A stretch of DNA of 64,000 nt, taken from positions 248,001-312,000 of the forward strand of contig MPCU01000003.1 of NCBI GenBank assembly GCA_001874305.1, in the 5' to 3' direction. Below, in pieces: positions 339 to 55,429 of this stretch. The translations under genes and the position numbers were made by a program. The stretch's first letter is position 1. Every line of letters starts with the position of its first letter. The notes under the pieces are model-generated. The model was not told where the DNA came from. It did no database searches and saw only the letters and a program-made list of their open reading frames with translations. This DNA comes from Bacteriovorax sp. MedPE-SWde (lineage in GTDB: Bacteria; Bdellovibrionota; Bacteriovoracia; Bacteriovoracales; Bacteriovoracaceae).

Positions 339-608
339 GTGGACTTTTTTTCAGATATAGCAAAGCAAGCAATTACAATAGGACTGATGATTTCAGCTCC
401 AATGTTACTTGGCTCACTTGTTATGGGTATCTTAGTTTCGATCTTTCAGGCCGTTACTCAAATCAATGAACAAACACTTTCATTTATTCCAAAGATTCTA
501 GTTATTATTGGTGCACTTGTACTTTGTGCACCTTGGATGAGTGATCAATTAACAACTTTTACAAGGGAATTAATTATTAGTATTCCTCAACTTGTTACAG
601 GTAGATAA
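339..608 (+). CDS. fliQ: FliQ, flagellar export gate protein
   Basis: Small export-gate membrane protein of 89 residues, the family's normal size, with two transmembrane helices (about 14-38 and 50-72) and the conserved QINEQTLSFIPK segment between them. The start is GTG at 339, preceded by AGGAGAGA at good spacing; no ATG fits. The stop codon overlaps the fliR start (TAATG), so the two are probably translationally coupled. Confidence 0.95.
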   Translation: MDFFSDIAKQAITIGLMISAPMLLGSLVMGILVSIFQAVTQINEQTLSFIPKILVIIGALVLCAPWMSDQLTTFTRELIISIPQLVTGR

Positions 609-1384
609 TGACAATACAGATAACTGACATTGTTCCAGTAATTGCATTCTTTCTTGTTTTTTCAAGACTGCTTGCTGTGAATTTTCAGTTACCTATTTAT
701 GATAACCTTCCGATTCCAATGATTGTTAAAATTCTATCAACACTTGTAATGTCATACTGCTTCTTTCCTTATGTTCAAGGAGAAGTAATGAAAGATATTG
801 CTTATGTAGGTAAGGAAAATTTTTGGGCGCTAACGGCCGTATATACAATAGTTGGCCTGGTTATAGGCTACCTTGTTAAATCAATCATGGGGATCTTTGT
901 AGCGGGTGGTTCTATCATTACACAACAGGTTGGGTTTGCAGCAGTACAATACTTTGACCCGACATCAAATCAACAAATTGGTCCGTTCGAGAAGCTCATT
1001 CAGTGGACAGTACTTGTAATGGTTATATCTTCTGGAGCATTACTTCCAATGTTCAAGGGCGTGTTTCACTCTTTTGAATCAATACATATTTATCAAATGG
1101 GTGCTTTTGCTAAAGCCCACATCTTTTATATAGAAGCATTTAAGTCGATATTTCTTTCGGCGATTATGCTTGCAACACCTTTAATTTTTACAAATATGCT
1201 AATCATGACAATCCTAGGAATTATCGCAAGAACAGTTCCTCAGTTGAATGTAATTATGGTTAGTTTTGCAGTTAATATTGGACTTGGTTTGCTAGTTTTT
1301 GCAGCAACAAGTGACGAATTTTTTAGTGTCGCCTTCAAGATTTATACAGATAAGCTTGGGGAATGGTTTCAATTTGTTATCTAG
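608..1384 (+). CDS. fliR: FliR, flagellar export gate protein
   Basis: Third export-gate membrane protein, 258 residues, close to the usual FliR length, with several long hydrophobic segments throughout. The FliR-type motif SRLLAVNFQLPIYDNLPIP lies near the N-terminus and the C-terminal half has the expected membrane helices. It starts in the stop codon of fliQ and is followed after 18 bases by flhB, so it is part of one polycistronic unit. The assignment rests on order and the N-terminal motif and is firm. Confidence 0.94.
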   Translation: MTIQITDIVPVIAFFLVFSRLLAVNFQLPIYDNLPIPMIVKILSTLVMSYCFFPYVQGEVMKDIAYVGKENFWALTAVYTIVGLVIGYLVKSIMGIFVAGGSIITQQVGFAAVQYFDPTSNQQIGPFEKLIQWTVLVMVISSGALLPMFKGVFHSFESIHIYQMGAFAKAHIFYIEAFKSIFLSAIMLATPLIFTNMLIMTILGIIARTVPQLNVIMVSFAVNIGLGLLVFAATSDEFFSVAFKIYTDKLGEWFQFVI

Positions 1385-1402
1385 AGGATAACGGGATAAA
1401 AA

Positions 1403-2482
1403 ATGGCTGACGATTCATCAGATGCAGAAAAAACAGAAGAGCCCTCCGCTCATAGGATTGAAGAATCCAGGCGAAAGGGTGAAGTTGCTTCCTCGAAAGA
1501 ACTTTCGAGTGTTCTCGTTTTATCGGCGTGTCTGCTTACATTAGGTCTTTCTATGATCTTCATTTATGAAGAGCTGGATTCCTTTGTTAGATGGTTAGCA
1601 CATCTTGATATCGCATCTGCGTTCACAGAAAAATCATTAAAAACAATAGTTCATAGAACTGCAAAAACGACACTTATGTGTGCAGCTCCTGTAAGTATCG
1701 TTGCTCTTTGTGTAGGTGTAATCGCAAATATTGCACAGGTTGGGATTCTATTCTCTCCAGATGTTCTTCAATGGAAGCCAGAGAGAATTAACCCTCTAAA
1801 GGGAATTAAGAAACTCTTCTCTGCACAGGCTGCAGTTGAAGCTATTAAAGGTATATTTAAGTTCATTATAGTGATGGGAATTGTTTATCTCTTTTTAAAA
1901 GATGAGATAGCTTCATATATTGGTTTCTTTCACATGGATTTCTTTCAGTCATTTATCTACGGTAAATCGATTCTTATAAAACTTGGGTTTTCTATCATTG
2001 GTGGTCTTGTACTAATCGCAATAGGTGACTTTGCTTACCAAAAGCATTCTTATAAGAAAAAGATGATGATGACAAAAGAAGAGGCCAAGCGTGAGTCCAA
2101 AGAGCAAGATGGTAATCCAGAAGTAAAGCAAAGAATTAGAAGTATTCAAAGAGAAATGGCATCAAAGAGAATGATGGCCGATATTCCTACTGCTGATGCA
2201 ATCATCACAAACCCTACTCATATAAGTATTGTTCTTAAATATGACCAAGAAAAAATGATCTCTCCAACAATTATTGGTAAGGGACAAGATCACTTAGCAA
2301 TGAGAATTAGAGAAATTGCAAAAGAACATAATATTCCAATTGTTGAAAATGTTCCTCTAGCACGAGCTCTTTATAAGAGTGTCAATGTTGGAGAAAGTGT
2401 TCCAAGAACACTATATAAAGCAGTCGCTGAAGTACTGGCCTTTGTTTATAAGTTGAAAAGAAATAAAAAGGCCATGGGGTAG
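1403..2482 (+). CDS. flhB: FlhB, flagellar export specificity switch
   Basis: FlhB controls the switch from rod/hook to filament export. The 359-residue protein begins with the typical acidic stretch followed by the RIEESRRKGEVASSKEL segment, then four membrane segments, then a charged cytoplasmic linker and the cytoplasmic domain. The autocleavage motif N270-P271-T272-H273 is intact, so normal self-cleavage between N and P is expected. The C-terminal sequence VPLARALYKSV is also typical. Eight bases separate it from flhA. Confidence 0.97.
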   Translation: MADDSSDAEKTEEPSAHRIEESRRKGEVASSKELSSVLVLSACLLTLGLSMIFIYEELDSFVRWLAHLDIASAFTEKSLKTIVHRTAKTTLMCAAPVSIVALCVGVIANIAQVGILFSPDVLQWKPERINPLKGIKKLFSAQAAVEAIKGIFKFIIVMGIVYLFLKDEIASYIGFFHMDFFQSFIYGKSILIKLGFSIIGGLVLIAIGDFAYQKHSYKKKMMMTKEEAKRESKEQDGNPEVKQRIRSIQREMASKRMMADIPTADAIITNPTHISIVLKYDQEKMISPTIIGKGQDHLAMRIREIAKEHNIPIVENVPLARALYKSVNVGESVPRTLYKAVAEVLAFVYKLKRNKKAMG

Positions 2483-2490
2483 GAGAATAA

Positions 2491-4566
2491 ATGGACGGAT
2501 TTTTTGGTAAATTCAAATTTTTATCACAGAATGCTGACTTAGTTGTTGCAGTAGGATTAATGCTCATTTTGGGTGTTATGATTATTCCTGTACCACCAAT
2601 TGTTCTAGATTTACTATTAGCGATTACTCTATCATTTGCGATCATAATTTTATTAGTTTCTGTTTACTCTAAGAAGCCACTAGATTTCTCAACTTTTCCA
2701 TCTGTTCTTCTTGTAACGACTTTATTTAGATTATCTCTAAATGTAGCCTCGACAAGAAATATTCTTTTACGAGGTGGGTCTGATGGAACAAGTGCAGCTG
2801 GTGAAATCATTAAGAGTTTCGGTGAGTTCGTTGTAGAAGGGAATTTCGTCGTAGGTATTATTGTCTTTATTATTCTAGTAATTATCAACTTTATGGTTAT
2901 TACAAAGGGTGCTGGGCGTGTTGCTGAAGTTGCTGCACGATTCACTTTAGATGCGATGCCTGGTAAGCAGATGGCAATTGATGCTGATTTAAATGCCGGA
3001 CTAATTGACGATGCACAAGCTAAACAAAGACGAGCTGAAGTTGCTCAGGAAGCAGATTTTTACGGGTCTATGGATGGTGCTTCGAAGTTCGTTCGAGGGG
3101 ATGCTATTGCAGGTATTATGATTACTGCAATTAATATCATCGGTGGAATTATTGTTGGTGTTGCCCAAAATGGTTTAAGTTTTGGTCAGGCAGCTGAAAC
3201 ATTTACTCTTCTAACTGTTGGTGATGGTCTTGTATCTCAAATACCTGCACTAATCATATCAACTGCAGCGGGTTTAATTGCCACGAGAAACACTTCTGAT
3301 GATAATCTTGGTGCACAGATTGAGAAGCAATTTAAGTTACATCCTAAGGCAATCTATATTGCTTCTGGTGTACTTCTTGTTTTCTCTTTAATCCCAGGAC
3401 TTCCTAAGCTTCCATTTATTGCTGTAGGACTTGGTCTTGCTTATATGGGAAATCGCATAGAGAAAGGTGTTGCAAAAGAGATAGCTGAAGAAGCAACAAA
3501 GAATACTGAAGAGAAGAAGGCAACTCCTGATTCACTTGAAGATCTGCTTTCACTTGAACTCGTGGAGCTTGAGGTTGGTTATGGGCTTGTAAACCTTGTG
3601 GATTCCTCTCAAAATGGTGATCTTCTTGAAAGAATTACATACATGAGGAAACAATTCGCTTTAGACTGGGGTGTAATCATTCCATCTGTTAGAATAAAGG
3701 ACAACCTGGAGTTAAAACCAGGTGGATATAGTGTCAAAATCAAAGGAATTGAAGTCGCTAGTGGAGAATTAATGCCCGATCATTTCTTGGCCATGGACCC
3801 TGGCTCAGTAATTGAAAAAATGGATGGTGTTGAAACTGTTGAACCAGTTTTTGGTCTCCCTGCGGTATGGATTTCTGAAGAGCAAAAAGATGATGCTGGA
3901 TACAATGGTTATACAGTAGTTGATCTCTCTACAGTAATGGCAACACACCTTACTGAAATCTTAAAATCTAATTTATACGAACTATTTGGTAGACAAGAAC
4001 TTGTTAGAGTTATGGATAATTTCAAGGATCACTATCCTAAAATTGTTGCAGACCTTGTACCAGATATTCTTCCTCTTGGTTCTGTTCTTAAGGTACTTCA
4101 AAACCTACTTAGAGAAGGTGTATCAGTTAGAGACTTAAGAACAATTCTTGAAACACTTTCTGAGTTTGGAATATCAGTTAAGGACCCAGACTCACTGACA
4201 GAATATGTAAGACAGTCACTTTATAGAACAATTACAGAAGTTATAAAAAGTGACATGGGGGATATCCCACTATTTACATTAGATAGAAAAATTGAAGAAC
4301 AAGTTGCAAGTAACTTAATTCAGACGGAAAGCGGTCAACAATTATCGTTGGATCCAAGAGTCACTCAAACGATACTTGCAAGTTTAAATGAGAAAATTGA
4401 AGAAGCAACGAACATGGGCGAGAAAATGGTTGTCCTGTGTTCGCCAGTAATAAGAAACCACTTTAAGAAATTGACAGAAAAATTTATTCCAAACTTGATT
4501 GTGGTAAGTCATAATGAATTAAGCCCTGATGCAAACATCAGGTCTCTTGGAACGGTGAGGTTATAG
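2491..4566 (+). CDS. flhA: FlhA, flagellar export gate protein with cytoplasmic ring domain
   Basis: FlhA is the large export-gate component whose cytoplasmic nonamer docks substrates and chaperones. This 691-residue protein has the usual length and layout: about eight membrane helices in the first ~330 residues, the conserved FHIPEP-type cytoplasmic loop containing RFTLDAMPGKQMAIDADL, then a soluble domain of about 330 residues. RBS AGGAG precedes ATG 2491. The stop and the flhF start are two bases apart. No irregularity seen. Confidence 0.97.
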   Translation: MDGFFGKFKFLSQNADLVVAVGLMLILGVMIIPVPPIVLDLLLAITLSFAIIILLVSVYSKKPLDFSTFPSVLLVTTLFRLSLNVASTRNILLRGGSDGTSAAGEIIKSFGEFVVEGNFVVGIIVFIILVIINFMVITKGAGRVAEVAARFTLDAMPGKQMAIDADLNAGLIDDAQAKQRRAEVAQEADFYGSMDGASKFVRGDAIAGIMITAINIIGGIIVGVAQNGLSFGQAAETFTLLTVGDGLVSQIPALIISTAAGLIATRNTSDDNLGAQIEKQFKLHPKAIYIASGVLLVFSLIPGLPKLPFIAVGLGLAYMGNRIEKGVAKEIAEEATKNTEEKKATPDSLEDLLSLELVELEVGYGLVNLVDSSQNGDLLERITYMRKQFALDWGVIIPSVRIKDNLELKPGGYSVKIKGIEVASGELMPDHFLAMDPGSVIEKMDGVETVEPVFGLPAVWISEEQKDDAGYNGYTVVDLSTVMATHLTEILKSNLYELFGRQELVRVMDNFKDHYPKIVADLVPDILPLGSVLKVLQNLLREGVSVRDLRTILETLSEFGISVKDPDSLTEYVRQSLYRTITEVIKSDMGDIPLFTLDRKIEEQVASNLIQTESGQQLSLDPRVTQTILASLNEKIEEATNMGEKMVVLCSPVIRNHFKKLTEKFIPNLIVVSHNELSPDANIRSLGTVRL

Positions 4567-4567
4567 G

Positions 4568-6022
4568 ATGTATGTAAGAAAGTTTGAAGCTGACTCATTG
4601 GAAGAGGCACTCAAAGACATCAAGAGAGAGCTTGGACCAGATGCGATCATTTTAAAGACGCTGACAAATAAAGGTCTCAAAGGTGCATTTAAAAAGAAGA
4701 GAATCGAAATTACAGCAGCTATCTCGGAGAGAAATTACTCCAGTAAAGCTAAGGTAGATAAAGTTCTTAATCCAGCACAAAAAGATAAGTTTTATAAGAA
4801 CGATGCATCGTATATTTCTAATATGATTAATTCAGATACTAAGACGGAAACTGCTCCTGCTGCGGCCGGTGGATATGGAAAGCTAGCTTTAAATAAGCAG
4901 GTGAACTCAGTCGCTAACGAGACGGAACATAATTTTAGTTCTCAGGGGCCAATGAGCTCTGGTTTAGATGACTTTCTTAATACAGCACCTGCCCCTAAGA
5001 AAGTAGAAGATGAGAATCCTATTTTTGCAGATGAGCCAAATTTTGATATCGAACCTACTATTGTAGAAGAGCCTGTTGCTGTCGCACCAAGAATAGAAGT
5101 TACTCATGAAGAAGTTTCTCGTGAATCTTTAATTGACAGCTCAGAAGTTCAAAAAACAGTTGATGCGCAAAAATCTAAAATAGATGACCTTGAAAAGAAA
5201 CTCTATGAATTAACTCAAAGTGTACAAAGTATAAATAAGCCTCAGGCCCTTGGTGTTCAAGAGCTAGTAGCAATTTTAAGAAGTTTAGATATTGAAGAGA
5301 CATATGTTCAAAAAGTTTTAAGAAAAGCAAACTTTGAACTATCTGTTGCAGATAAAGAAGATCCAGATACGGTATTTGAATTTGCATTGAGAGAAATGTT
5401 GAATGAAATCAATGTTGATATGCCTCTTTTTTCTTCAGTAGATAATAGTGAAAAGCACACTGTAACAGTAGTACTTTCAGATGTAACATCTGGACAAAGT
5501 ACAATGCTTAGAAAAATAGCATCTCTTCAAAAAGATTCTATGATTATTCGAAATAAAGGTGATGAAGATTTTAAAGAAAATGAAACATTTTCTGAAAAGT
5601 TCTTTGATATAGATACTAAGGTTTGTCGTTCAATTTCTGAAATCGTTTCGGCCACTAGAGGAGCTCTAGAAGGTAAGAAGAACGTTTTTGTTGACTACAA
5701 AGCAGGTAATCAAGAGGCCAATGAAGTAAAGAAGTTTATTGATGGTCTTAGAAGATCTTTTGAGAATGTGGAAGTTTTAGTATGCCTTTCATCAATCAAC
5801 ACAGAGTTATATAATAGAAAGGTACTTAACCGTTATACCGGATTGGCAAACGGAATGGTAGTCACACACTTAGATCAATGTTTGAATTTTGGATCACTCT
5901 TTAATTTAGCAATAGATTTTAATCAACTACCATATAAGTTCTTTGGAACAGGACAAGTAGTTCCAGATGACCTCGAAGCTGCAACTGCCGAAAGGATTTT
6001 GGCAGGGATTTTTCAGCTGTAA
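4568..6022 (+). CDS. flhF: FlhF-like flagellar placement protein with a degenerate GTPase domain
   Basis: FlhF is an SRP-type GTPase that marks the pole for flagellum assembly. The N-terminus is classical (MYVRKFEADSLEEALKDIK, ELGPDAIIL), followed by a long acidic linker and a coiled coil near residues 195-220. The C-terminal domain still aligns: the ending GTGQVVPDDLEAATAERILAG is the family signature. The nucleotide-binding motifs are not intact. The P-loop position reads SDVTSGQST (304-312) with no lysine, the DTAGR position reads VDYKAGNQ, and the TKLDE position reads THLDQ. The frame is uninterrupted and lies in the expected place in the operon, so this is a retained protein that probably cannot hydrolyse GTP, not a pseudogene. 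Confidence 0.9.
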   Translation: MYVRKFEADSLEEALKDIKRELGPDAIILKTLTNKGLKGAFKKKRIEITAAISERNYSSKAKVDKVLNPAQKDKFYKNDASYISNMINSDTKTETAPAAAGGYGKLALNKQVNSVANETEHNFSSQGPMSSGLDDFLNTAPAPKKVEDENPIFADEPNFDIEPTIVEEPVAVAPRIEVTHEEVSRESLIDSSEVQKTVDAQKSKIDDLEKKLYELTQSVQSINKPQALGVQELVAILRSLDIEETYVQKVLRKANFELSVADKEDPDTVFEFALREMLNEINVDMPLFSSVDNSEKHTVTVVLSDVTSGQSTMLRKIASLQKDSMIIRNKGDEDFKENETFSEKFFDIDTKVCRSISEIVSATRGALEGKKNVFVDYKAGNQEANEVKKFIDGLRRSFENVEVLVCLSSINTELYNRKVLNRYTGLANGMVVTHLDQCLNFGSLFNLAIDFNQLPYKFFGTGQVVPDDLEAATAERILAGIFQL

Positions 6023-6062
6023 TTAATATTTTTTGACTTGTTTACATTCAACGGGAGACAGG

Positions 6063-6953
6063 ATGTCTAAAGGTGAGCTGAGTCATTGGTTAATGTCACA
6101 AAGAAGTGACTTTGGACCAAGCGAAAAATTGAATTTAAATTCAATTAGCACAAAGAAACGCACAATCGCTATTGCTTCAGGCAAAGGTGGGGTAGGGAAA
6201 ACAACTGCTTCATTAATGCTTGCTAAGGAATTAGTAGAATCTGGCAATAAGGTATTAGTTATTGATTGTGATTACAATCTCTCTAATACAGCAGTTAAAC
6301 TTGGTTTACCGCTAAGTGATAACTTTTACTCATTACTTTCAATGAAGAAAGATTTCTCTGAGTGTTTACATAAAGAGGGAGACCTTCACCTATTATCTGG
6401 CTGTAATGGTAACTCAGATCTATTCGATACAAATTTTGAACATGATAAATTTATTATCGATGTCATTCATGAACATGGGGATGAATATGATTTTATTCTT
6501 CTTGATTGTCCAGCAGGTATAGGTAAAGAAACTGTTAATCTTGCAGCATATGCTGATTATAGATTTATGATTGTAAATCCTGATAGGTCGTCTATTACTG
6601 ACACCTACGCCCTAATAAAAATACTTAAAAATAAATATTCTATCTCTGAAAATCATTTAGTTGTTAATCGAGTCTCATCACAAAAACAATACCTGAGAGT
6701 TGTTAAGTCTCTCATGGATACGGTTTCTACCTTCTTAGAAGGTAATGTTAGAGTTTTAGGCCCTGTTAAGTTTATTAACATTCCTGTCGATGAGTTTGAT
6801 AAAGGTCTAAGGGGGGCGGAAAAAAGTTCCCTGCACAAATATTTCTCTAAAATTGCATCGAAGTTTACCGACGAGAGCACTGGTCTGTTTGAAAATATTA
6901 TAAATTCAAACGTAAAGCCGTCAGTAGAACATGAAGTTCAACCAACCGTATAA
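6063..6953 (+). CDS. flhG: FlhG (MinD-like ATPase regulating flagellar number)
   Basis: MinD/ParA-type ATPase of 296 residues that normally works with FlhF to set flagellar number. The deviant Walker A motif GKGGVGKTT (40-48) is complete, with the signature lysine, and the switch regions VIDCDYNLSN and LLDCPAGIG are present. I start it at ATG 6063, behind ACGGGAGACAGG; the longer frame from TTG 6033 has no ribosome site. The N-terminal stretch ELSHWLMSQR replaces the DQAxxLR motif that in other FlhG proteins stimulates FlhF. Forty bases follow flhF and fliA is 15 bases downstream. Confidence 0.93.
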   Translation: MSKGELSHWLMSQRSDFGPSEKLNLNSISTKKRTIAIASGKGGVGKTTASLMLAKELVESGNKVLVIDCDYNLSNTAVKLGLPLSDNFYSLLSMKKDFSECLHKEGDLHLLSGCNGNSDLFDTNFEHDKFIIDVIHEHGDEYDFILLDCPAGIGKETVNLAAYADYRFMIVNPDRSSITDTYALIKILKNKYSISENHLVVNRVSSQKQYLRVVKSLMDTVSTFLEGNVRVLGPVKFINIPVDEFDKGLRGAEKSSLHKYFSKIASKFTDESTGLFENIINSNVKPSVEHEVQPTV

Positions 6954-6968
6954 GACAAGGAGTGCTCG

Positions 6969-7754
6969 ATGTCATCTATAGCAAAAAAACTAAAGAATTT
7001 AAAAGATTATAGATCAACTGTTGATCCAAAAGTTAAAGATGAAATTGTTGTAGAGTATGCGCCGCTAATTAAGTATATTGCGCAAAAGATAGCCTCACGT
7101 CTTCCGGCGAATATTGAGCTAGACGATCTAATTTCATGTGGTGTTATTGGATTAATGGATGCGATTGAAAAATTTGATCCAACAAGAGATAATAAATTTA
7201 AAACATATGCAGAATTTAGAATTAGAGGTTCAATTCTAGATGAACTTAGAGCGCAAGATTGGGTCCCAAGATCTATTAGAGAGAAGGCTAAGGTTATTGA
7301 TAGAGCTTACTCTAAATTAGAGTCTAAGCTTGGTAGACCAGCAACAGACGAAGAAATGTGTTCAGAGCTTACTGTTACCAAAGATGAGTTTCATGACATG
7401 CTTAATAAAGCTAAGTCTGTATCGATGCTAAATATCGATGATTCTGCTACTTTTAATCGTAATGATAAAAAGACCATGGCAGGAATGAATGAAGAAAGTA
7501 AGCATGTTAATCCATTTACTGCTGTTGCAAATAAAAACTTCAGAGAAAAAATAAAAGAGGGAATCTCTCAACTACCTGAGAAGCAAAGATTAGTTCTTTC
7601 TTTATATTATTATGAAGACCTTAATCTTAAGGAAATTGGTCAAGTTTTAGATGTAACTGAATCAAGAGTATCTCAACTTCACACCCAAGCAGTGTCCAAG
7701 TTAAAAGCTAAGCTACAAACGATGTTTGAAGGTTATGAAGAGCTTGTAGGGTAG
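6969..7754 (+). CDS. fliA: FliA, flagellar sigma factor (sigma28)
   Basis: RNA polymerase sigma factor of 261 residues for late flagellar and chemotaxis genes. Region 2 (LDDLISCGVIGLMDAIEKFDP and KFKTYAEFRIRGSILDELR) and region 4 (LPEKQRLVLSLYYYEDLNLKEIG then VSQLHTQAV) are complete and typical for the sigma28 group; region 3 lies between. It is the last gene of the flagellar operon and is followed by a clear terminator at 7787-7813. I did not find a convincing sigma28 promoter in this window, so its targets lie elsewhere. Confidence 0.95.
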   Translation: MSSIAKKLKNLKDYRSTVDPKVKDEIVVEYAPLIKYIAQKIASRLPANIELDDLISCGVIGLMDAIEKFDPTRDNKFKTYAEFRIRGSILDELRAQDWVPRSIREKAKVIDRAYSKLESKLGRPATDEEMCSELTVTKDEFHDMLNKAKSVSMLNIDDSATFNRNDKKTMAGMNEESKHVNPFTAVANKNFREKIKEGISQLPEKQRLVLSLYYYEDLNLKEIGQVLDVTESRVSQLHTQAVSKLKAKLQTMFEGYEELVG

Positions 7755-47622: not shown

Positions 47623-48294
47623 ATGGACTTAGACTTTCTCAACGATATTAAAGAGCACTCACAACATTTTGATAAGAAAATAGATATAGCTAACAGTGTT
47701 AGCTGCCCAAAGTGTAACTCTTTTCTAATTGAAGAGGGGACTTGTACTAGTTGTGGACTAAATCTAAATTACAATCCCCTTGGTGAGCCAGTGGGAGAAA
47801 GAAGCTTTTATACTATTAGAGAAGGTTATTGGGATTCAATGAATGCTTTTGAAAGAGAGCACCTGCGATTCTTTAAGGACGAGAGTAAATTTAAGCACTA
47901 TATAAATAAGATTAAGCTGAGATATAACGATCTTCTTGATTATTTTTACTCTGAGAAATCGATTCAAGATCAGTATCGTTCTCTATATCTTCATGAATTG
48001 AGAGATATTGTAATAGAGTTGATTAGCTGTGAAGTTGATGAGGATGAAATTTGGAGTCCTCTCAATGAAAAACAAAATGATATCAATAGTGGAGCTCTCT
48101 CTCTATATGACCAAATTAAGTCAGCTGTAACGGAGCATAAGAGAGAAAAAAGAAAACTGAGAAAGAAGAATCTTCTCAACTATAGGCTTGGAGGTAAAAT
48201 CTCTGTTGCCACTCTCTTTAGTTCTTTAATGTTTATGGGGATTCTGCTGAGTATTTCTTTAGCATATATTTCATATACTAGAGCAATTAATTAG
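47623..48294 (+). CDS. Zinc-ribbon protein with C-terminal membrane helix
   Basis: A 223-residue protein of unknown function. Cysteines C28, C31, C41 and C44 (SCPKC, CTSCG) form a zinc ribbon near the N-terminus; the middle (about 80-180) is charged and helical; a membrane helix lies at about 192-217. It would be a tail-anchored cytoplasmic protein. There is no Shine-Dalgarno before ATG 47623, and the promoter geometry predicts a leaderless mRNA. It converges on the first subtilase with a four-base overlap. Confidence 0.72.
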   Translation: MDLDFLNDIKEHSQHFDKKIDIANSVSCPKCNSFLIEEGTCTSCGLNLNYNPLGEPVGERSFYTIREGYWDSMNAFEREHLRFFKDESKFKHYINKIKLRYNDLLDYFYSEKSIQDQYRSLYLHELRDIVIELISCEVDEDEIWSPLNEKQNDINSGALSLYDQIKSAVTEHKREKRKLRKKNLLNYRLGGKISVATLFSSLMFMGILLSISLAYISYTRAIN

Positions 48295-49469
48295 TTAGCG
48301 AATCTATAAATAATCTTTCCATTCTTATTAGAGTTAGCAATATTTCTCTTCTTAGATTTCTTCTTTGTTTTAGCAAAAGACTTACTATCTTTATTTTGTC
48401 TGTATAGCTTTGTTGCTAATCCTTGTGCTTGTGTAGCATCAAGCCTTCCTTCTGACTTACATTTTCCAAGAAGAGTAATCTCTTTCTTAGCAGATAATGT
48501 AATGATCTTCTTAAGATCTTTAGGCTTTAGGTTAGGAAACTGTGCTTTTAGCATTGCTGCAACTCCTGAAACAAATGCTGTTGCCTGACTAGTTCCAGTT
48601 AAGAAGCTTGCTTTTCCACTTGGTGTAGCCGACTTTATTCGAGAACCAGGTGCTGCGATATCTACACTTATCTTTCCGTAGTTTGAAGAGCTAAGGACTT
48701 GTAGGTTCTGATCATGTGCAGTTACTGTTATAATATTTGATAATTTGTAGCTTGCTGGAAAATATGCATTCTTCTTATTATCAATATTTGATTCTTCATT
48801 TCCTGCTGCCGCAACAACAAGTATTCCTTTTTGTTCTGCTTTCTTTAAAATTTCAAGTTCTTCAAGATCCGGCTCTGGTCCACCACCTGAATAGTTAATA
48901 ACATCAACATTTTGCTCAACTGCATACCTTAAGGCTTGGATTGTTGAATCTAAGTTGTCCTTTCCTGATGCAGTTCTGTTGTAATATTTTAAAGGTAGAA
49001 TTTTAACTTTTGGAAATACACTCTTAATGATCCCTGAAACATGAGTTCCATGTCCATGAGTATCATATGGTCTTGTTGCAAATTTTCTATTTTTAGAAAA
49101 ATCTATACCGTAATTTGTCGTACTAGATGATCCGTATGAAACATGAATATTATCTTTAAGGAATGGGTGATTTGGGTCTATTCCTGTATCAACTACAGCA
49201 ACAACGATCTCTCTCTTTTGTTCAAATTTCTTCCAGGCCTGAAGAAGGTTAATCGATGACTTCTTGTTAGAAGGCTTAACACCCCAACTTGAGAAACGTG
49301 ATTCTAGGACTGCCGTAGAGTTGAAGTCTTCTTTCTGATACTTCTTCTTAATGATCTTCTTTTTAAGATCTTTAAAAGATACAGCATTGTAGCTCTGTGA
49401 GAATGAACTTACAGAAGTAGCGAGGGTTGCTGTGACAAAAAGAATTTTCAGTGTTGATAGTCTGCTCAA
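48291..49469 (-). CDS. Secreted subtilisin-family (S8) serine protease
   Basis: A 392-residue peptidase with the S8 triad: D94 (VVDTGIDPNHP), H140 (HGHGTHVSG) and S294 (TGTSQATAFVSG), and the oxyanion N224 (AAAGNE). A signal peptide covers about 1-24 (ending SSFSQ), followed by a short pro-region; a Lys-rich tail follows the catalytic domain. The start is TTG 49469, because GGGGAG lies exactly six bases upstream and the signal peptide begins there; the frame further up has no ribosome site. A consensus sigma54 promoter precedes it. Probably exported for extracellular or envelope proteolysis. Confidence 0.9.
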   Translation of the reverse strand: MSRLSTLKILFVTATLATSVSSFSQSYNAVSFKDLKKKIIKKKYQKEDFNSTAVLESRFSSWGVKPSNKKSSINLLQAWKKFEQKREIVVAVVDTGIDPNHPFLKDNIHVSYGSSSTTNYGIDFSKNRKFATRPYDTHGHGTHVSGIIKSVFPKVKILPLKYYNRTASGKDNLDSTIQALRYAVEQNVDVINYSGGGPEPDLEELEILKKAEQKGILVVAAAGNEESNIDNKKNAYFPASYKLSNIITVTAHDQNLQVLSSSNYGKISVDIAAPGSRIKSATPSGKASFLTGTSQATAFVSGVAAMLKAQFPNLKPKDLKKIITLSAKKEITLLGKCKSEGRLDATQAQGLATKLYRQNKDSKSFAKTKKKSKKRNIANSNKNGKIIYRFAN

Positions 49470-49515
49470 GTGTTTCTCCCCAGTTTTAAGACAACTTGAT
49501 TGTCTCCATTTATAA

Positions 49516-49532
49516 AGCAAGAGAAGTGCCAA
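49516..49532 (-). promoter_or_regulatory. Sigma54-type promoter for the first subtilase
   Basis: Minus strand TTGGCAC-TTCTC-TTGCT: consensus -24 and -12 elements with the required GG-N10-GC spacing. Transcription would start near 49505, giving a leader of about 36 bases that includes the GGGGAG ribosome site. Confidence 0.7.
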
Positions 49533-51434: not shown

Positions 51435-51469
51435 TTATAAAATTAAGAAAAATGACAAAAGGAATTGTT

Positions 51470-52759
51470 ATGTTAAAAATGAGTATCGTCATGATGGCGA
51501 CAGTAGGAGCATTCGCTTCAAGTCCAAAGATTAACCTTAATAGAATTGTAGTGAAAATGAAGGATGGACATAGTCTTCCAAAAAACTCACTCGTAAAATC
51601 TTCAAAGCTACTTTTTGAAAATATGTATATTGTAAATACAGTAGATGCCAAGAAGCTTGCTCAAGATCTAAAAAGTAATAATAAAATAGCTAAGATTCAG
51701 TTTGATTACTTCAGTGGAAGAAAAAGTCTTCCTAGTGCAGAAGGAACAGAAACACTTGAAAAGAACCTTGAGAAAAACTCTGATGGATTCAATGATCCTG
51801 GAATGAGAAGACTTTGGGGGTTTAAGACTGCAGATAAAAATGGAATGGATATCTCTAATGCTTATAAGAACTTTGGTTCAGCCAGTGGAGATCCTATCAT
51901 TGTTGCTGTAGTGGATACTGGAGTTGATTACAACCATGAAGACCTTAAAGATGTAATGTGGGTTAACAAGGGTGAAATTGCGAATAATGGAATTGATGAT
52001 GATGGAAATGGGTATATAGATGATATCCATGGAATCAATACTCTTGTTAGAGATGAGCAAGGTAGAGCAACTGGTGACATGATGGATAAGCATAGTCACG
52101 GTACTCATGTTTCTGGAACTATTGGGGCGACTCAAAATAATGGAACTGGAATTGCTGGTGTTGCTTCTAACGTAAGAATAATGGGAATTAGATCAGTTCC
52201 AAATAGTGGTGACGAGACAGATATTGATGTCGCAGAATCATTTATCTATGCGGCCAAGCATGGAGCAAAAGTTATCAATTGTTCTTTTGGGAAAAAGCAT
52301 AATGAAGGTGGAATGATTGTTAAGGAAGCAATTGATCATATAGGTGAAAAGTATGGAGTACTTGTTGTTGCGGCAGCGGGGAATGAGTCATCTAATAACG
52401 ATAGATCAAAGAAATATCCTGCGTCTTTTGAAAGTGAGAACCTATTAGTCGTAGCTTCAACAACGAAGTGGGGACGTCTATCAGGTTTTTCAAACTATGG
52501 TCAAACGACTGTTGATGTAGCAGCTCCTGGATCTTCGATTTATTCAACGACACCAAGAAATAGATATTCAAATATGTCTGGAACTTCAATGGCATCTCCT
52601 AATACTGCGGGACTTGCTGCTGAGATACTTGCTCGTAACCCAGAGCTTTCACCAATACAGTTAAAGAATATAATTATGGACTCAGTTACAAAGGGTCGTC
52701 GCTACACTTCGAAAACAGTTTCAGGTGGATTGATTAATTTAAATAGTGCATTAGAGTAA
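51470..52759 (+). CDS. Second secreted subtilisin-family (S8) serine protease
   Basis: A 429-residue peptidase with the triad D149 (VVDTGVDYNHEDL), H210 (HSHGTHVSG) and S373 (SGTSMASPNTAG) and the oxyanion N305. Residues 1-17 form a signal peptide, about 18-105 an inhibitor-type propeptide, and the catalytic domain has an Asp-rich insertion NNGIDDDGNGYIDD (172-185) likely to bind calcium. ATG 51470 follows AAAGGAATTGTT. It differs from the 48.3-49.5 kb subtilase in length, pro-region and promoter, so it is a separate paralogue, not a recent duplicate. Confidence 0.93.
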   Translation: MLKMSIVMMATVGAFASSPKINLNRIVVKMKDGHSLPKNSLVKSSKLLFENMYIVNTVDAKKLAQDLKSNNKIAKIQFDYFSGRKSLPSAEGTETLEKNLEKNSDGFNDPGMRRLWGFKTADKNGMDISNAYKNFGSASGDPIIVAVVDTGVDYNHEDLKDVMWVNKGEIANNGIDDDGNGYIDDIHGINTLVRDEQGRATGDMMDKHSHGTHVSGTIGATQNNGTGIAGVASNVRIMGIRSVPNSGDETDIDVAESFIYAAKHGAKVINCSFGKKHNEGGMIVKEAIDHIGEKYGVLVVAAAGNESSNNDRSKKYPASFESENLLVVASTTKWGRLSGFSNYGQTTVDVAAPGSSIYSTTPRNRYSNMSGTSMASPNTAGLAAEILARNPELSPIQLKNIIMDSVTKGRRYTSKTVSGGLINLNSALE

Positions 52760-52769
52760 TTTGATATTG

Positions 52770-52797
52770 CGCCCTCTCTTTGAGGGCGTTTTCTTTT
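52770..52797 (+). terminator. Rho-independent terminator
   Basis: CGCCCTC, loop TCTTT, GAGGGCG, then TTTTCTTTT. It ends at the edge of the convergent PilZ gene. Confidence 0.9.
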
Positions 52798-53890
52798 AGA
52801 CGTATCTAACAAATGAGCGCGGATCTAAAACAAGCTCACCTGAATTTTCTTTCTCTTTAATAAATTTTGAAATTTCATCTTGTGCCTTATTTATGGCAGA
52901 TGCTGGCTTAGGTCTATCCAGTTTCTCTAAGAACTCTTCTCTAATGCTATCTGTAACTTCTGAAAGTAGATCGAGAATAAGCTCCTTACTTGATAGACGT
53001 AAAGAAGTTGCGAGTAAGTCGTGATTAACAGAAAGAAGAAATTGCCTTTTCATTTCTGTTGTTAGGTATCTTAGCCTATCAATATCTTCGACTTTATCAC
53101 TTATATTTGCAGCGAGTTGAGGATTCTTAGATCTGATATTGGAGATTGTCTTTTCAAGCTCATCTGGGTTTAATCCATTGAAGCCATCAGTATCAAGGCC
53201 TTTAACTTTTTGCTGCTTCTTTTTGATGACACTACCGATTGACTTATATGTGATTGAATCTAAGCCTTCTGTGAAACTACATCCAACATGAATAAGCTTA
53301 GAGTCTGACTCTCGAGACAGCATAAATGGTTGGGTGTAAATAACTTGGGCCTTATGACCTTGTGGTATCTCCTGATCAGTTAGACTTTTTATCGTAACAA
53401 TAGAGTCCTTAGATAGTAAGTCGCGATCTTTTTGATCGAGGACAAAACTAATTCCTGCTGTTGAAACATCAGTTAATATTGCAGTTACTACTTCGTCTCC
53501 ACTTTCTAGAGAAAATGAAACATTTTTAAAGTCTTGATACTTATAAGAGAATCTATCTGAAATTCTTTTGTCTCTGAACTTAACCTCATAGGGTGTTTTA
53601 AAAGAGATAAGGCCATTACTAATAGAGAAGATATCTCTTTTAAATAGGATGTCTTCAGATTCACAGTGAAAGAATAATGTAACTTGAACATTTATTCTTC
53701 CGTAAGCGTTCTTATATTTCTCATCTAGTTTTAATACACATGTATCAGGTGAAACTTGCGTTAATACCCCTGTATATTTCTCTCTAAGATCCTCGAAATT
53801 TTGCCAAAGGGTAATTTCTTTTACAGAGCTTTTTAACTCTTCAAATTGACCTTGGATATAATCAGAATCATAGCATGACCATAATTTCAT
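52796..53890 (-). CDS. YcgR-like PilZ protein with a FliG-like C-terminal domain
   Basis: A 364-residue soluble protein. Residues ~30-105 look like the N-terminal domain of YcgR-type flagellar brakes. Residues ~106-225 are a PilZ domain with both c-di-GMP motifs, R109-x3-R113 (RISDR) and D141-x-S-x2-G146 (DVSTAG). After a charged linker, residues ~268-357 resemble the C-terminal part of the rotor protein FliG: KRQFLLSVNHDLLATSL matches the region after the torque helix, and INKAQDEISKFIKEKENSGEL matches FliG's VxxAQxxIxxIxxxLEExGEI. FliG's acidic DDRS torque motif is absent (LTTEMK). RBS AAGGA. I infer a c-di-GMP-controlled protein touching the flagellar motor. Confidence 0.8.
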   Translation of the reverse strand: MKLWSCYDSDYIQGQFEELKSSVKEITLWQNFEDLREKYTGVLTQVSPDTCVLKLDEKYKNAYGRINVQVTLFFHCESEDILFKRDIFSISNGLISFKTPYEVKFRDKRISDRFSYKYQDFKNVSFSLESGDEVVTAILTDVSTAGISFVLDQKDRDLLSKDSIVTIKSLTDQEIPQGHKAQVIYTQPFMLSRESDSKLIHVGCSFTEGLDSITYKSIGSVIKKKQQKVKGLDTDGFNGLNPDELEKTISNIRSKNPQLAANISDKVEDIDRLRYLTTEMKRQFLLSVNHDLLATSLRLSSKELILDLLSEVTDSIREEFLEKLDRPKPASAINKAQDEISKFIKEKENSGELVLDPRSFVRYV

Positions 53891-53898
53891 ATATTCCT

Positions 53899-54930
53899 TT
53901 ACTGCTTTAAGTTACGCCAGCTTCGACCTTTTCTATTCTTGCGATTTTTCTGCCACTTATTAACAGCTTGTTTGTGTTTCTTATAATTTTCAGAAAAGAT
54001 GTGTGTTCCATCATTCTTACTAACAAAGTATAAATAATTATGTTCTTGAGGGGAGAGTACTGCTCTTAGCGACTCTAGACCTGGACTTGAAATCGGGCCT
54101 GCCGGAAGACCTGGAATTTTATAAGTATTATAAGGAGTTTTTTGAAGAAGATGCTTCTTTCTAAGGTTCCCATTATAAGTTTCATAAATACCGTAGATCG
54201 TAGTTGGATCAGACTGAAGCCTCATCCTCTTCTTTAGTCTATTATGGAAGACACCTGCGATAGTCGGTCTCTCAAAGCTTGCTCCTGTCTCTTTTTCAAC
54301 AACAGATGCTAGAATGATAACTTCATGCATTTTTAAGTTCGTTTGAGAAAAATCGAGTAGTTTAATCTTTTGATTAAATAGCCTAACCATGGACTTTATA
54401 ATGATTGGTGCCGGTGTATTCTTTTGAAAGTTATAAGTGTCTGGGTAGAGATACCCTTCAACTCTTTTTGCTGGAATGCCAAGCTTCTTAGCAAGCTGAG
54501 GATCCTTTGCAAATTTAATAAATTCTTTAGCTGAAGTGATTTCTTTGTTTTCAAGAATCTCTGCGATTTGAAAGAGGTTTCTTCCCTCTGGGATCGTCAC
54601 CTTAGTAGTAATGGATTTTCCACTCGTAAGTAAGTCGAGTGTTGCTCCCATTGTTAGTCCGGCCTTTATATTATATTGACCGGCCTTGAAAGAAGTTAGC
54701 TTATTATTAAACTTTGCAAGTCTATGAAAGAGTCTCGCACTGTAAATAATTTTCTTATCATTAAGTCTGTAATTTATAGGACCAAAAGCATCACCAGGTT
54801 TTATGGTAAATACTGTATCGGGGCCTTTAAATGTCCAGATATAGATTGCGTAATAAACTTGCGCTCCGGCCATAGTAAGGGCGAACATAGGCGCTAGGAC
54901 TAAGAAGATAAGTAGATTTTTTTTGCTCAT
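53899..54930 (-). CDS. mltG: MltG, endolytic murein transglycosylase (YceG family)
   Basis: Cleaves nascent glycan strands, ending peptidoglycan polymerisation. The 343-residue protein has an N-terminal membrane anchor (about 5-27), a LysM-like region, and the YceG domain with the catalytic glutamate in ILASVVEKETGASFERP, followed by GVFHNRLKKRMRLQSDPTTIYG. No clear ribosome site precedes ATG 54930. It lies 8 bases before the PilZ gene and 37 after ruvX, so the three may share a transcript. Confidence 0.94.
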   Translation of the reverse strand: MSKKNLLIFLVLAPMFALTMAGAQVYYAIYIWTFKGPDTVFTIKPGDAFGPINYRLNDKKIIYSARLFHRLAKFNNKLTSFKAGQYNIKAGLTMGATLDLLTSGKSITTKVTIPEGRNLFQIAEILENKEITSAKEFIKFAKDPQLAKKLGIPAKRVEGYLYPDTYNFQKNTPAPIIIKSMVRLFNQKIKLLDFSQTNLKMHEVIILASVVEKETGASFERPTIAGVFHNRLKKRMRLQSDPTTIYGIYETYNGNLRKKHLLQKTPYNTYKIPGLPAGPISSPGLESLRAVLSPQEHNYLYFVSKNDGTHIFSENYKKHKQAVNKWQKNRKNRKGRSWRNLKQ

Positions 54931-54967: not shown

Positions 54968-55429
54968 CTAAGTTTTACGAATGAAATCTTCAAGAATTAT
55001 TATTGCCGCTACTTCATCAATTTTTTTAAGATCAACTTGAAAGTTATATTGCGCAGAGTTGAGCATTCTTTCTTTAGCTGCACTTGTCGTAAGTGTTTCA
55101 TCCTGCTCAATGACTTCAATATCAGGAAACTTTTCCTTTACCCGATTAAATTTATTGCGCATTTCACGGGTCTTCTCAGTTTCTCCACCATCAACTAGGT
55201 AAGGAACACCAAAAATAATGACCTCAATAAAGTCATCCTCTACTATAAGCGCTAATTCCTCGAGGAACTTATCCATTCCTGTATTAACTATTCTTCCTCT
55301 GCCTATAGGAAAAGGCTCCCTACCTGGACAAAAAGCCGCTAATCCAATGACTTTGGCCCCAAAGTCTATGGCCAACATATTCTTATTCTTAAATTTTTGA
55401 AAGTTTGGGTAGTTAATAAAGTCTAGCAT
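54968..55429 (-). CDS. ruvX: RuvX/YqgF, Holliday junction resolvase-like / pre-16S rRNA nuclease
   Basis: RNase H-fold protein implicated in 16S rRNA 5' processing. The 153-residue protein has LAIDFGAKVIGLA (first catalytic Asp), VIIFGVPYLVDGGET, DETLTTSAAKERM and the last Asp in KIDEVAAIIILEDF. The first 17 residues exceed most homologues. ATG 55429 has no Shine-Dalgarno but a promoter ends six bases before it; ATG 55378 is the alternative start. Confidence 0.9.
   Translation of the reverse strand: MLDFINYPNFQKFKNKNMLAIDFGAKVIGLAAFCPGREPFPIGRGRIVNTGMDKFLEELALIVEDDFIEVIIFGVPYLVDGGETEKTREMRNKFNRVKEKFPDIEVIEQDETLTTSAAKERMLNSAQYNFQVDLKKIDEVAAIIILEDFIRKT

Follow-up and report, generated by a model that had tools for sequence, protein, structure and literature searches.

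Cyclic di-GMP effectors of the YcgR kind act directly on the flagellar motor. YcgR, MotI and PlzD slow the motor (PMC12713396, PMC11800159, PMC10653909), and YcgR contacts MotA through its C-tail helix and FliG through its YcgR-N domain (PMC12713396, PMC10140304), but how it stops the motor is still disputed, with the stator, the rotor or both proposed as its target (PMC12713396). A gene in the window (the whole 64,000-nucleotide stretch of Bacteriovorax sp. MedPE-SWde DNA that was analysed) appeared to join such an effector to a piece of the rotor. We therefore asked whether this protein truly combines a c-di-GMP-binding half with a FliG C-terminal domain (FliG_C), where such a fusion came from, and what it might do in a bacterium that swims with a flagellum.

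Domain architecture of the fusion protein

The open reading frame called in the first-pass annotation, 52796-53890, is real and lies on the minus strand; from an ATG start it encodes a protein of 364 amino acids (P0001), the parts of which were delimited from the ORF, Pfam matches and an AlphaFold2 model. The full-length model, built from the homologue alignment, consists of two barrels followed by a helical C-terminal domain (mean pLDDT 78, pTM 0.53), and given the low pTM and a pLDDT of about 50 in the C-tail it does not fix the relative placement of the domains.

The first barrel, residues 1-106 (53573..53890, minus strand), found no match among Pfam sequence models and was detected by its fold. 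VIA-align superposed residues 1-108 of the model on YcgR-N (5y6h) with a Z of 13.8 (2.2 Å over 102 residues), bearing out the earlier suggestion that a YcgR-N-like region precedes the PilZ domain. The PilZ domain itself, together with its C-tail helix, spans residues 107-231 (53198..53572, minus strand); Pfam matched it at residues 123-216 (E 7.8e-5, 23.4 bits against a cut-off of 22.5), and in the model residues 107-229 matched the PilZ domain of YcgR (5y6g; Z 11.2, 3.2 Å over 120 residues). Among the 21 members of the homologue alignment, Pfam recognised PilZ in 16 and FliG_C in all 21.

Two c-di-GMP motifs had been read in this domain, and both withstood comparison: RISDR (R109-R113; 53552..53566, minus strand) is the RxxxR motif and DVSTAG (D141-G146; 53453..53470, minus strand) the DxSxxG motif. 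Their five motif residues, R109, R113, D141, S143 and G146, show no variation across alignments of 17 and of 21 homologues, and both motifs are present in 29/29 fusion proteins; in homologue L067 RxxxR reads RKNQR. Judged by these residues, the predicted c-di-GMP site of the PilZ domain is intact.

The PilZ C-tail helix, residues 216-230 (53201..53245, minus strand), was placed from the junction sequences and from the model, where its confidence is low (pLDDT about 50). It corresponds to the MotA-binding tail of YcgR, and it continues directly into the KGLD-FNGL of the third domain, FliG_C, at residues 232-364 (52799..53197, minus strand). For this last domain Pfam returned a FliG_C match at residues 251-355 (E 1.5e-11, 45 bits against a cut-off of 23.3); side matches to MgtE_N, Baculo_PEP_C and the XPC-binding domain fell below the Pfam cut-off and were set aside. 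Using sequence only, a profile of the 21 homologues retrieved FliG chains of known structure (best E 2.7e-10), in alignments that begin at residue 199-218, at or before the PilZ C-tail helix, and that set this helix against the FliG helix preceding the Gly-Gly linker.

The fold agreed. Residues 268-357 of the full model superposed on FliG_C of 1lkv with a Z of 11.7 (1.7 Å, 90 residues). When residues 205-364 were modelled alone, FliG took Foldseek ranks 1-16 (best E 1.1e-3), and a second structural alignment gave Z 9.9-11.9 against FliG, including 11.8 against 1lkv (1.7 Å over 90 residues); 8ucs, in which FliG_C is bound to MotAB, was matched at Z 10. Outside FliG, the best row was a model of FliF, also of the flagellar rotor (9a67_B, Z 4.5), and the first unrelated row stood at 3.8. 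A chance or non-homologous helical match was rejected on these grounds, the strong fold matches being all to FliG and the unrelated rows reaching 3.8 at most. Profile and fold thus placed residues 251-357 in FliG_C, with neither a non-FliG family nor an unlike fold emerging. The FliG C-terminal pattern that the first-pass annotation had seen at residues 268-357 is therefore homologous, although not gap-free as claimed, since two residues are missing in the R297 stretch.

The rest of FliG is not there. Against the full FliG model TIGR00207 the protein scored 24.9 bits, below the cut-off of 226.7, and the N-terminal (FliF-binding) and middle (FliM-binding) domains are absent, residues 1-231 being YcgR-N and PilZ. 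The protein is confirmed as a fusion of YcgR-N, PilZ and a genuine FliG C-terminal domain.

Distribution and origin of the fusion

A scan of 84,980 species genomes, which used close-relative patterns only and may miss independent fusions in other phyla, returned homologues at 20 loci, all in Bacteriovoracaceae/Halobacteriovoraceae or unnamed relatives. It had been proposed that the same domain pair be sought across Bdellovibrionota; profile searches of whole genomes recovered the full-length fusion in 29 of the 129 genomes of the window's family, Bacteriovoracaceae/Halobacteriovoraceae (12 of 48 genera), and in 0 of 240 other Bdellovibrionota genomes. The hosts are marine predatory bacteria related to Halobacteriovorax. 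The nearest named homologue, 77% identical, is that of Bacteriovorax sp. DB6_IX, and the window's own genome is Halobacteriovorax-like. Viral contigs held no relatives of the fusion, which speaks against a phage origin, and a reading frame that is intact in each of 29 genomes, from 12 genera, rules out a recent fusion or an assembly artefact.

The three parts have not been conserved equally. Averaged over all pairs of 21 homologues, sequence identity rises from 0.29 in YcgR-N to 0.39 in PilZ and 0.55 in FliG_C, and in 209 of the 210 pairs FliG_C is more similar than the remainder of the protein, so that it is no appendage in decay. Nor has the fusion replaced a lost fliG, since a full-length standard FliG is kept in all 29 fusion genomes.

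Nearly all flagellated members of the family encode, beside FliG, two stand-alone FliG_C proteins: an A-type of about 141 aa (L072 7861-8286; G000:C14) and a B-type of about 144 aa (L073 7775-8209; G000:C11), with further A and B equivalents at L019-L030 and L113-L144. We found no description of either. In a tree of 111 FliG_C domains, which has 143 columns only and the deeper order of which is to be read with care, the fusion domains grouped with the A-type proteins (99/98), apart from standard FliG, and the B-type formed a separate group (100/100). Direct descent of the fusion domain from the genome's own fliG is unsupported by this tree; its FliG_C appears instead to derive from the family-wide stand-alone lineage. 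The closest relatives of the fusion domain are two short PilZ-less proteins (L022 and L026), and because the fusion-only branch is weak (90/19), the tree accommodates these two either as precursors of the fusion or as proteins that have lost PilZ.

Several features of these relatives deserve mention in their own right. The gene order around the A-type is conserved, running tatC, small membrane protein, sugar-epimerase-like gene, FliG_C, DksA/TraR-like gene. In the window's genus the A-type looks decaying or fast-evolving (G001:C178:2435-2851 and L032; one match carries three stops and one sits on a very long branch), and perhaps the fusion took over its place. A B-type protein is encoded at G032:C4:3399-3800 in a 91%-complete genome of 1.6 Mb without detectable FliM or standard FliG; its retention there suggests a use outside the flagellum, so that B may have another role. 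Directly downstream of one fusion gene lies a close PilZ-only paralogue (L047 11237-11953; G115:C8:148724-149425), which looks like a tandem duplicate that lacks FliG_C. Elsewhere in the same phylum, ORFs of about 450-470 aa (L160-L165) join YcgR-N/PilZ to a C-terminal region that resembles a degenerate HD-GYP domain (only a weak NCBIfam match).

The torque site is altered

Torque-site positions are given in Salmonella FliG numbering (K264, R281, D288, D289 and R297). MotA R90 contacts FliG D289 in placing the stator, and MotA E98 contacts FliG R281 in generating torque (PMC7564593). In the standard FliG of the family all five charges are present in 27/27 cases, with K264, R281 and D289 unchanged, position 288 acidic and position 297 basic. 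In the fusions position 264 is R throughout (29/29), R281 is kept in only 4/29 and replaced by N, T, S or G in the other 25, position 288 is acidic in 16/29, position 289 is K or R in 25/29 and acidic in 2/29, and position 297 is basic in none of the 29, two residues of that loop being deleted.

In the window protein the torque-helix equivalent, located by alignment to Salmonella and T. maritima FliG, comprises residues 314-324 (52919..52951, minus strand), within which the places of R281, D288 and D289 are taken by S315, E322 and K323; R298 occupies position 264, and there is no base at 297. The first-pass annotation had reported the loss of a DDRS torque motif. DDRS is not the torque motif, but most of the true torque charges are indeed lost. 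D289K and R281V are known as laboratory mutants of Salmonella FliG (PMC7564593), and K323 is the same substitution as D289K; the fusion family thus naturally combines a D289K-like change with loss at R281. The stand-alone A and B proteins likewise lack R281 and carry no basic residue at 297.

Also degenerate or gone in the fusions are the first helix of ARM_C, the Gly-Gly linker and the MFxF hinge, the latter two being absent altogether, with a VEDI-type sequence where the hinge (ARM_C to C1-6) would be. Docking of the fusion on the rotor may therefore be weakened.

The changes at R281 and D289 speak against the fusion bearing torque as a rotor subunit, and equally against its simply imitating FliG at the contact with MotA. 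The fusion could alternatively be a stator mimic, its FliG_C binding MotA in place of rotor FliG and titrating stators away at high c-di-GMP. The fold is that of FliG_C, which by itself is seen bound to MotAB in 8ucs, the base at 264 is kept in every fusion, and the torque-helix region is conserved within the fusions. However, R281 is lost in 25/29, and a base at 289, found in as many, would repel MotA R90 (PMC7564593). Moreover, the host MotA (L168), read by eye, keeps the R...E pair as R...FALE at matching spacing, so that no compensating change was seen. The loss and the reversal of charge lower the odds that the fusion simply competes for MotA by way of the FliG contact, and we consider the stator mimic improbable.

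Genomic context and flagellar partners

An mltG-like gene lies immediately upstream of the fusion gene (53899..54930, minus strand), with 8 bases between its stop codon and the fusion start codon, and is preceded by a ruvX/yqgF-like gene (54968..55429, minus strand), the first of a likely ruvX-mltG-fusion operon; both were named by sequence recognition. Five further loci of the Halobacteriovorax clade were inspected (L003, L006, L035-L037), and all show this order. A hairpin resembling a terminator lies shortly beyond the 3' end of the fusion gene (52769..52789); it is a consensus match only, found on the plus strand after a converging peptidase gene. That gene (51452-52759) is one of two nearby genes for subtilisin-like (S8) peptidases, the other being at 48291-49532; of the two, only the one at 48291-49532 is matched by a close counterpart in the corresponding position of the nearest relatives (L035-L037).

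Fusion neighbours are constant only inside a genus and differ in other genera. In several genera they include single-domain CheY-like receivers or a histidine-kinase-like gene (L041 9455-9964; L048 9036-9755 and 11089-11466; L049, L050, L052). Whether it lies next to mltG/ruvX or to unrelated genes, the fusion gene has no flagellar neighbours, and a search for sigma-28-like promoters allowing 3 mismatches gave too many matches to inform. Genomic context alone gives no pointer to flagella. Within the window, ORFs recognised by sequence as FliR-, FlhB-, FlhA-, FlhF-, FlhG- and FliA-like occupy 608-7750, shortly after fliM; this flagellar export and regulation cluster is about 45 kb from the fusion gene.

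The partners that a motor effector would need are nevertheless encoded. A standard fliG, the presence of which the first-pass annotation had left to be checked, was found in the window's genome within a flagellar operon (L074 9334-10362, 135 bits), and the genome also has fliM, MotA/MotB, two GGDEF proteins and eleven PilZ matches. FliM is absent from four species of one genus (g32) and from one reduced genome (G032). In the g32 species neither FliG_C nor the fusion profile found a match, although 3-5 other PilZ matches remain. Against a strict link, G011 and G030 have a standard FliG but likewise no YcgR-like match. The co-absence in aflagellate species supports a function at the motor, from few independent events, essentially one genus and one reduced genome.

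These data also bear on the proposal that FliG_C acts on another motor of the MotA/ExbB type, for example in gliding, or serves as a helical interaction module outside motility. The five MotA/ExbB matches in the window's genome, the B-type protein kept by G032 despite its lack of detectable FliM and standard FliG, and the co-direction of the fusion gene with mltG, a peptidoglycan-enzyme gene, are in keeping with it. Against it stand the standard FliG in every fusion genome and the four g32 species, which lack any copy of FliG_C while keeping other PilZ proteins. We think a role away from the flagellum quite unlikely.

Proposed function

From the architecture, which the analysis demonstrates, we infer a mechanism, and with it c-di-GMP binding, the docking site and the direction of the effect. 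The C-tail helix of E. coli YcgR binds MotA at the residues used by FliG. In the fusion this helix is joined directly to FliG_C, so that any movement of PilZ brought about by c-di-GMP would be passed on to FliG_C. We propose that the FliG_C domain would bring the protein to the rotor-stator interface, that c-di-GMP binding would shift PilZ and the C-tail and hence the attached FliG_C, and that the torque-dead surface, neutral at R281 and basic at D289, would spoil or repel stator engagement; rising c-di-GMP would in this way slow, declutch or bias the motor. The fusion would then be a c-di-GMP-gated motor effector of the YcgR class, docked by a torque-dead FliG_C and hindering stator engagement; this is the likeliest of the readings, although our confidence in it is evenly balanced. 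More generally, the protein probably equips these bacteria with a built-in means to slow or tune their flagellar motor. The first-pass annotation had inferred c-di-GMP control by insertion into, or competition in, the rotor ring, and the confirmed domain pair, the standard fliG and the recurrence in related genomes support that reading in part.

A more specific version is conceivable, in which rising c-di-GMP would set the FliG_C of the fusion in the C-ring, or on its surface, as a tooth that bears no torque and whose reversed stator contact repels stators and declutches the predator's flagellum, for example at prey contact. We hold this to be rather unlikely; if true, torque would depend on the mixture of functional and dead teeth in the rotor.

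Sequence does not give the direction of the effect, and a positive or trimming factor, acting in stator recruitment, switching bias or pole placement, would also fit the CheY-like receivers and the histidine-kinase-like gene that adjoin the fusion in several genera. Such a role is rather unlikely, given the slowing of the motor by YcgR, MotI and PlzD (PMC12713396, PMC11800159, PMC10653909) and the dead torque site of the fusion.

Comparison with known systems

Like the fusion, YcgR, FlgZ, MotI and PlzD have a YcgR-N barrel followed by a PilZ domain with the RxxxR and DxSxxG motifs, in a flagellated host. YcgR differs in lacking the 133-residue FliG_C domain that follows the C-tail helix in the fusion, and motor binding and braking by the fusion are putative. 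With FliG (PF01706; 1lkv, 8umd) the fusion shares C-terminal fold and sequence down to the final valine, but it has none of the FliG N-terminal and middle domains, and R281, D289, R297 and the MFxF hinge are not conserved. The stand-alone FliG_C proteins of Bdellovibrionota (about 140 aa) are nearest in the tree, and the A-type is also without R281 and R297; they carry no PilZ, however, and have lost D289 mostly to V or I, whereas in the fusion it has become K. The Salmonella mutants D289K and R281V are changed at the same positions as the fusion, D289K identically to K323 (PMC7564593), but are laboratory-made full FliG subunits, whereas the fusion is a natural, separate protein.

In the literature searched, with subscription journals, preprints and InterPro architectures outside the search, we found no description of PilZ joined to FliG_C, in agreement with the first-pass annotation, which had known of none. 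A natural fusion of a brake to FliG_C with both MotA contacts altered is evolutionary evidence for c-di-GMP effectors at the FliG_C-MotA interface, and offers a single polypeptide for testing c-di-GMP action there. The work also reveals that accessory FliG_C proteins are spread across this family of predatory bacteria.

Another member of the YcgR family has an extra domain in one lineage. YcgR-GAZ of Leptospirales carries an inserted GAF-like domain (PMC11800159); that domain is a different one, sits in a different place and bears no resemblance to a motor part, unlike the FliG_C of the fusion. The fusion is a protein of the YcgR kind in a variant form, and not a new kind of system.
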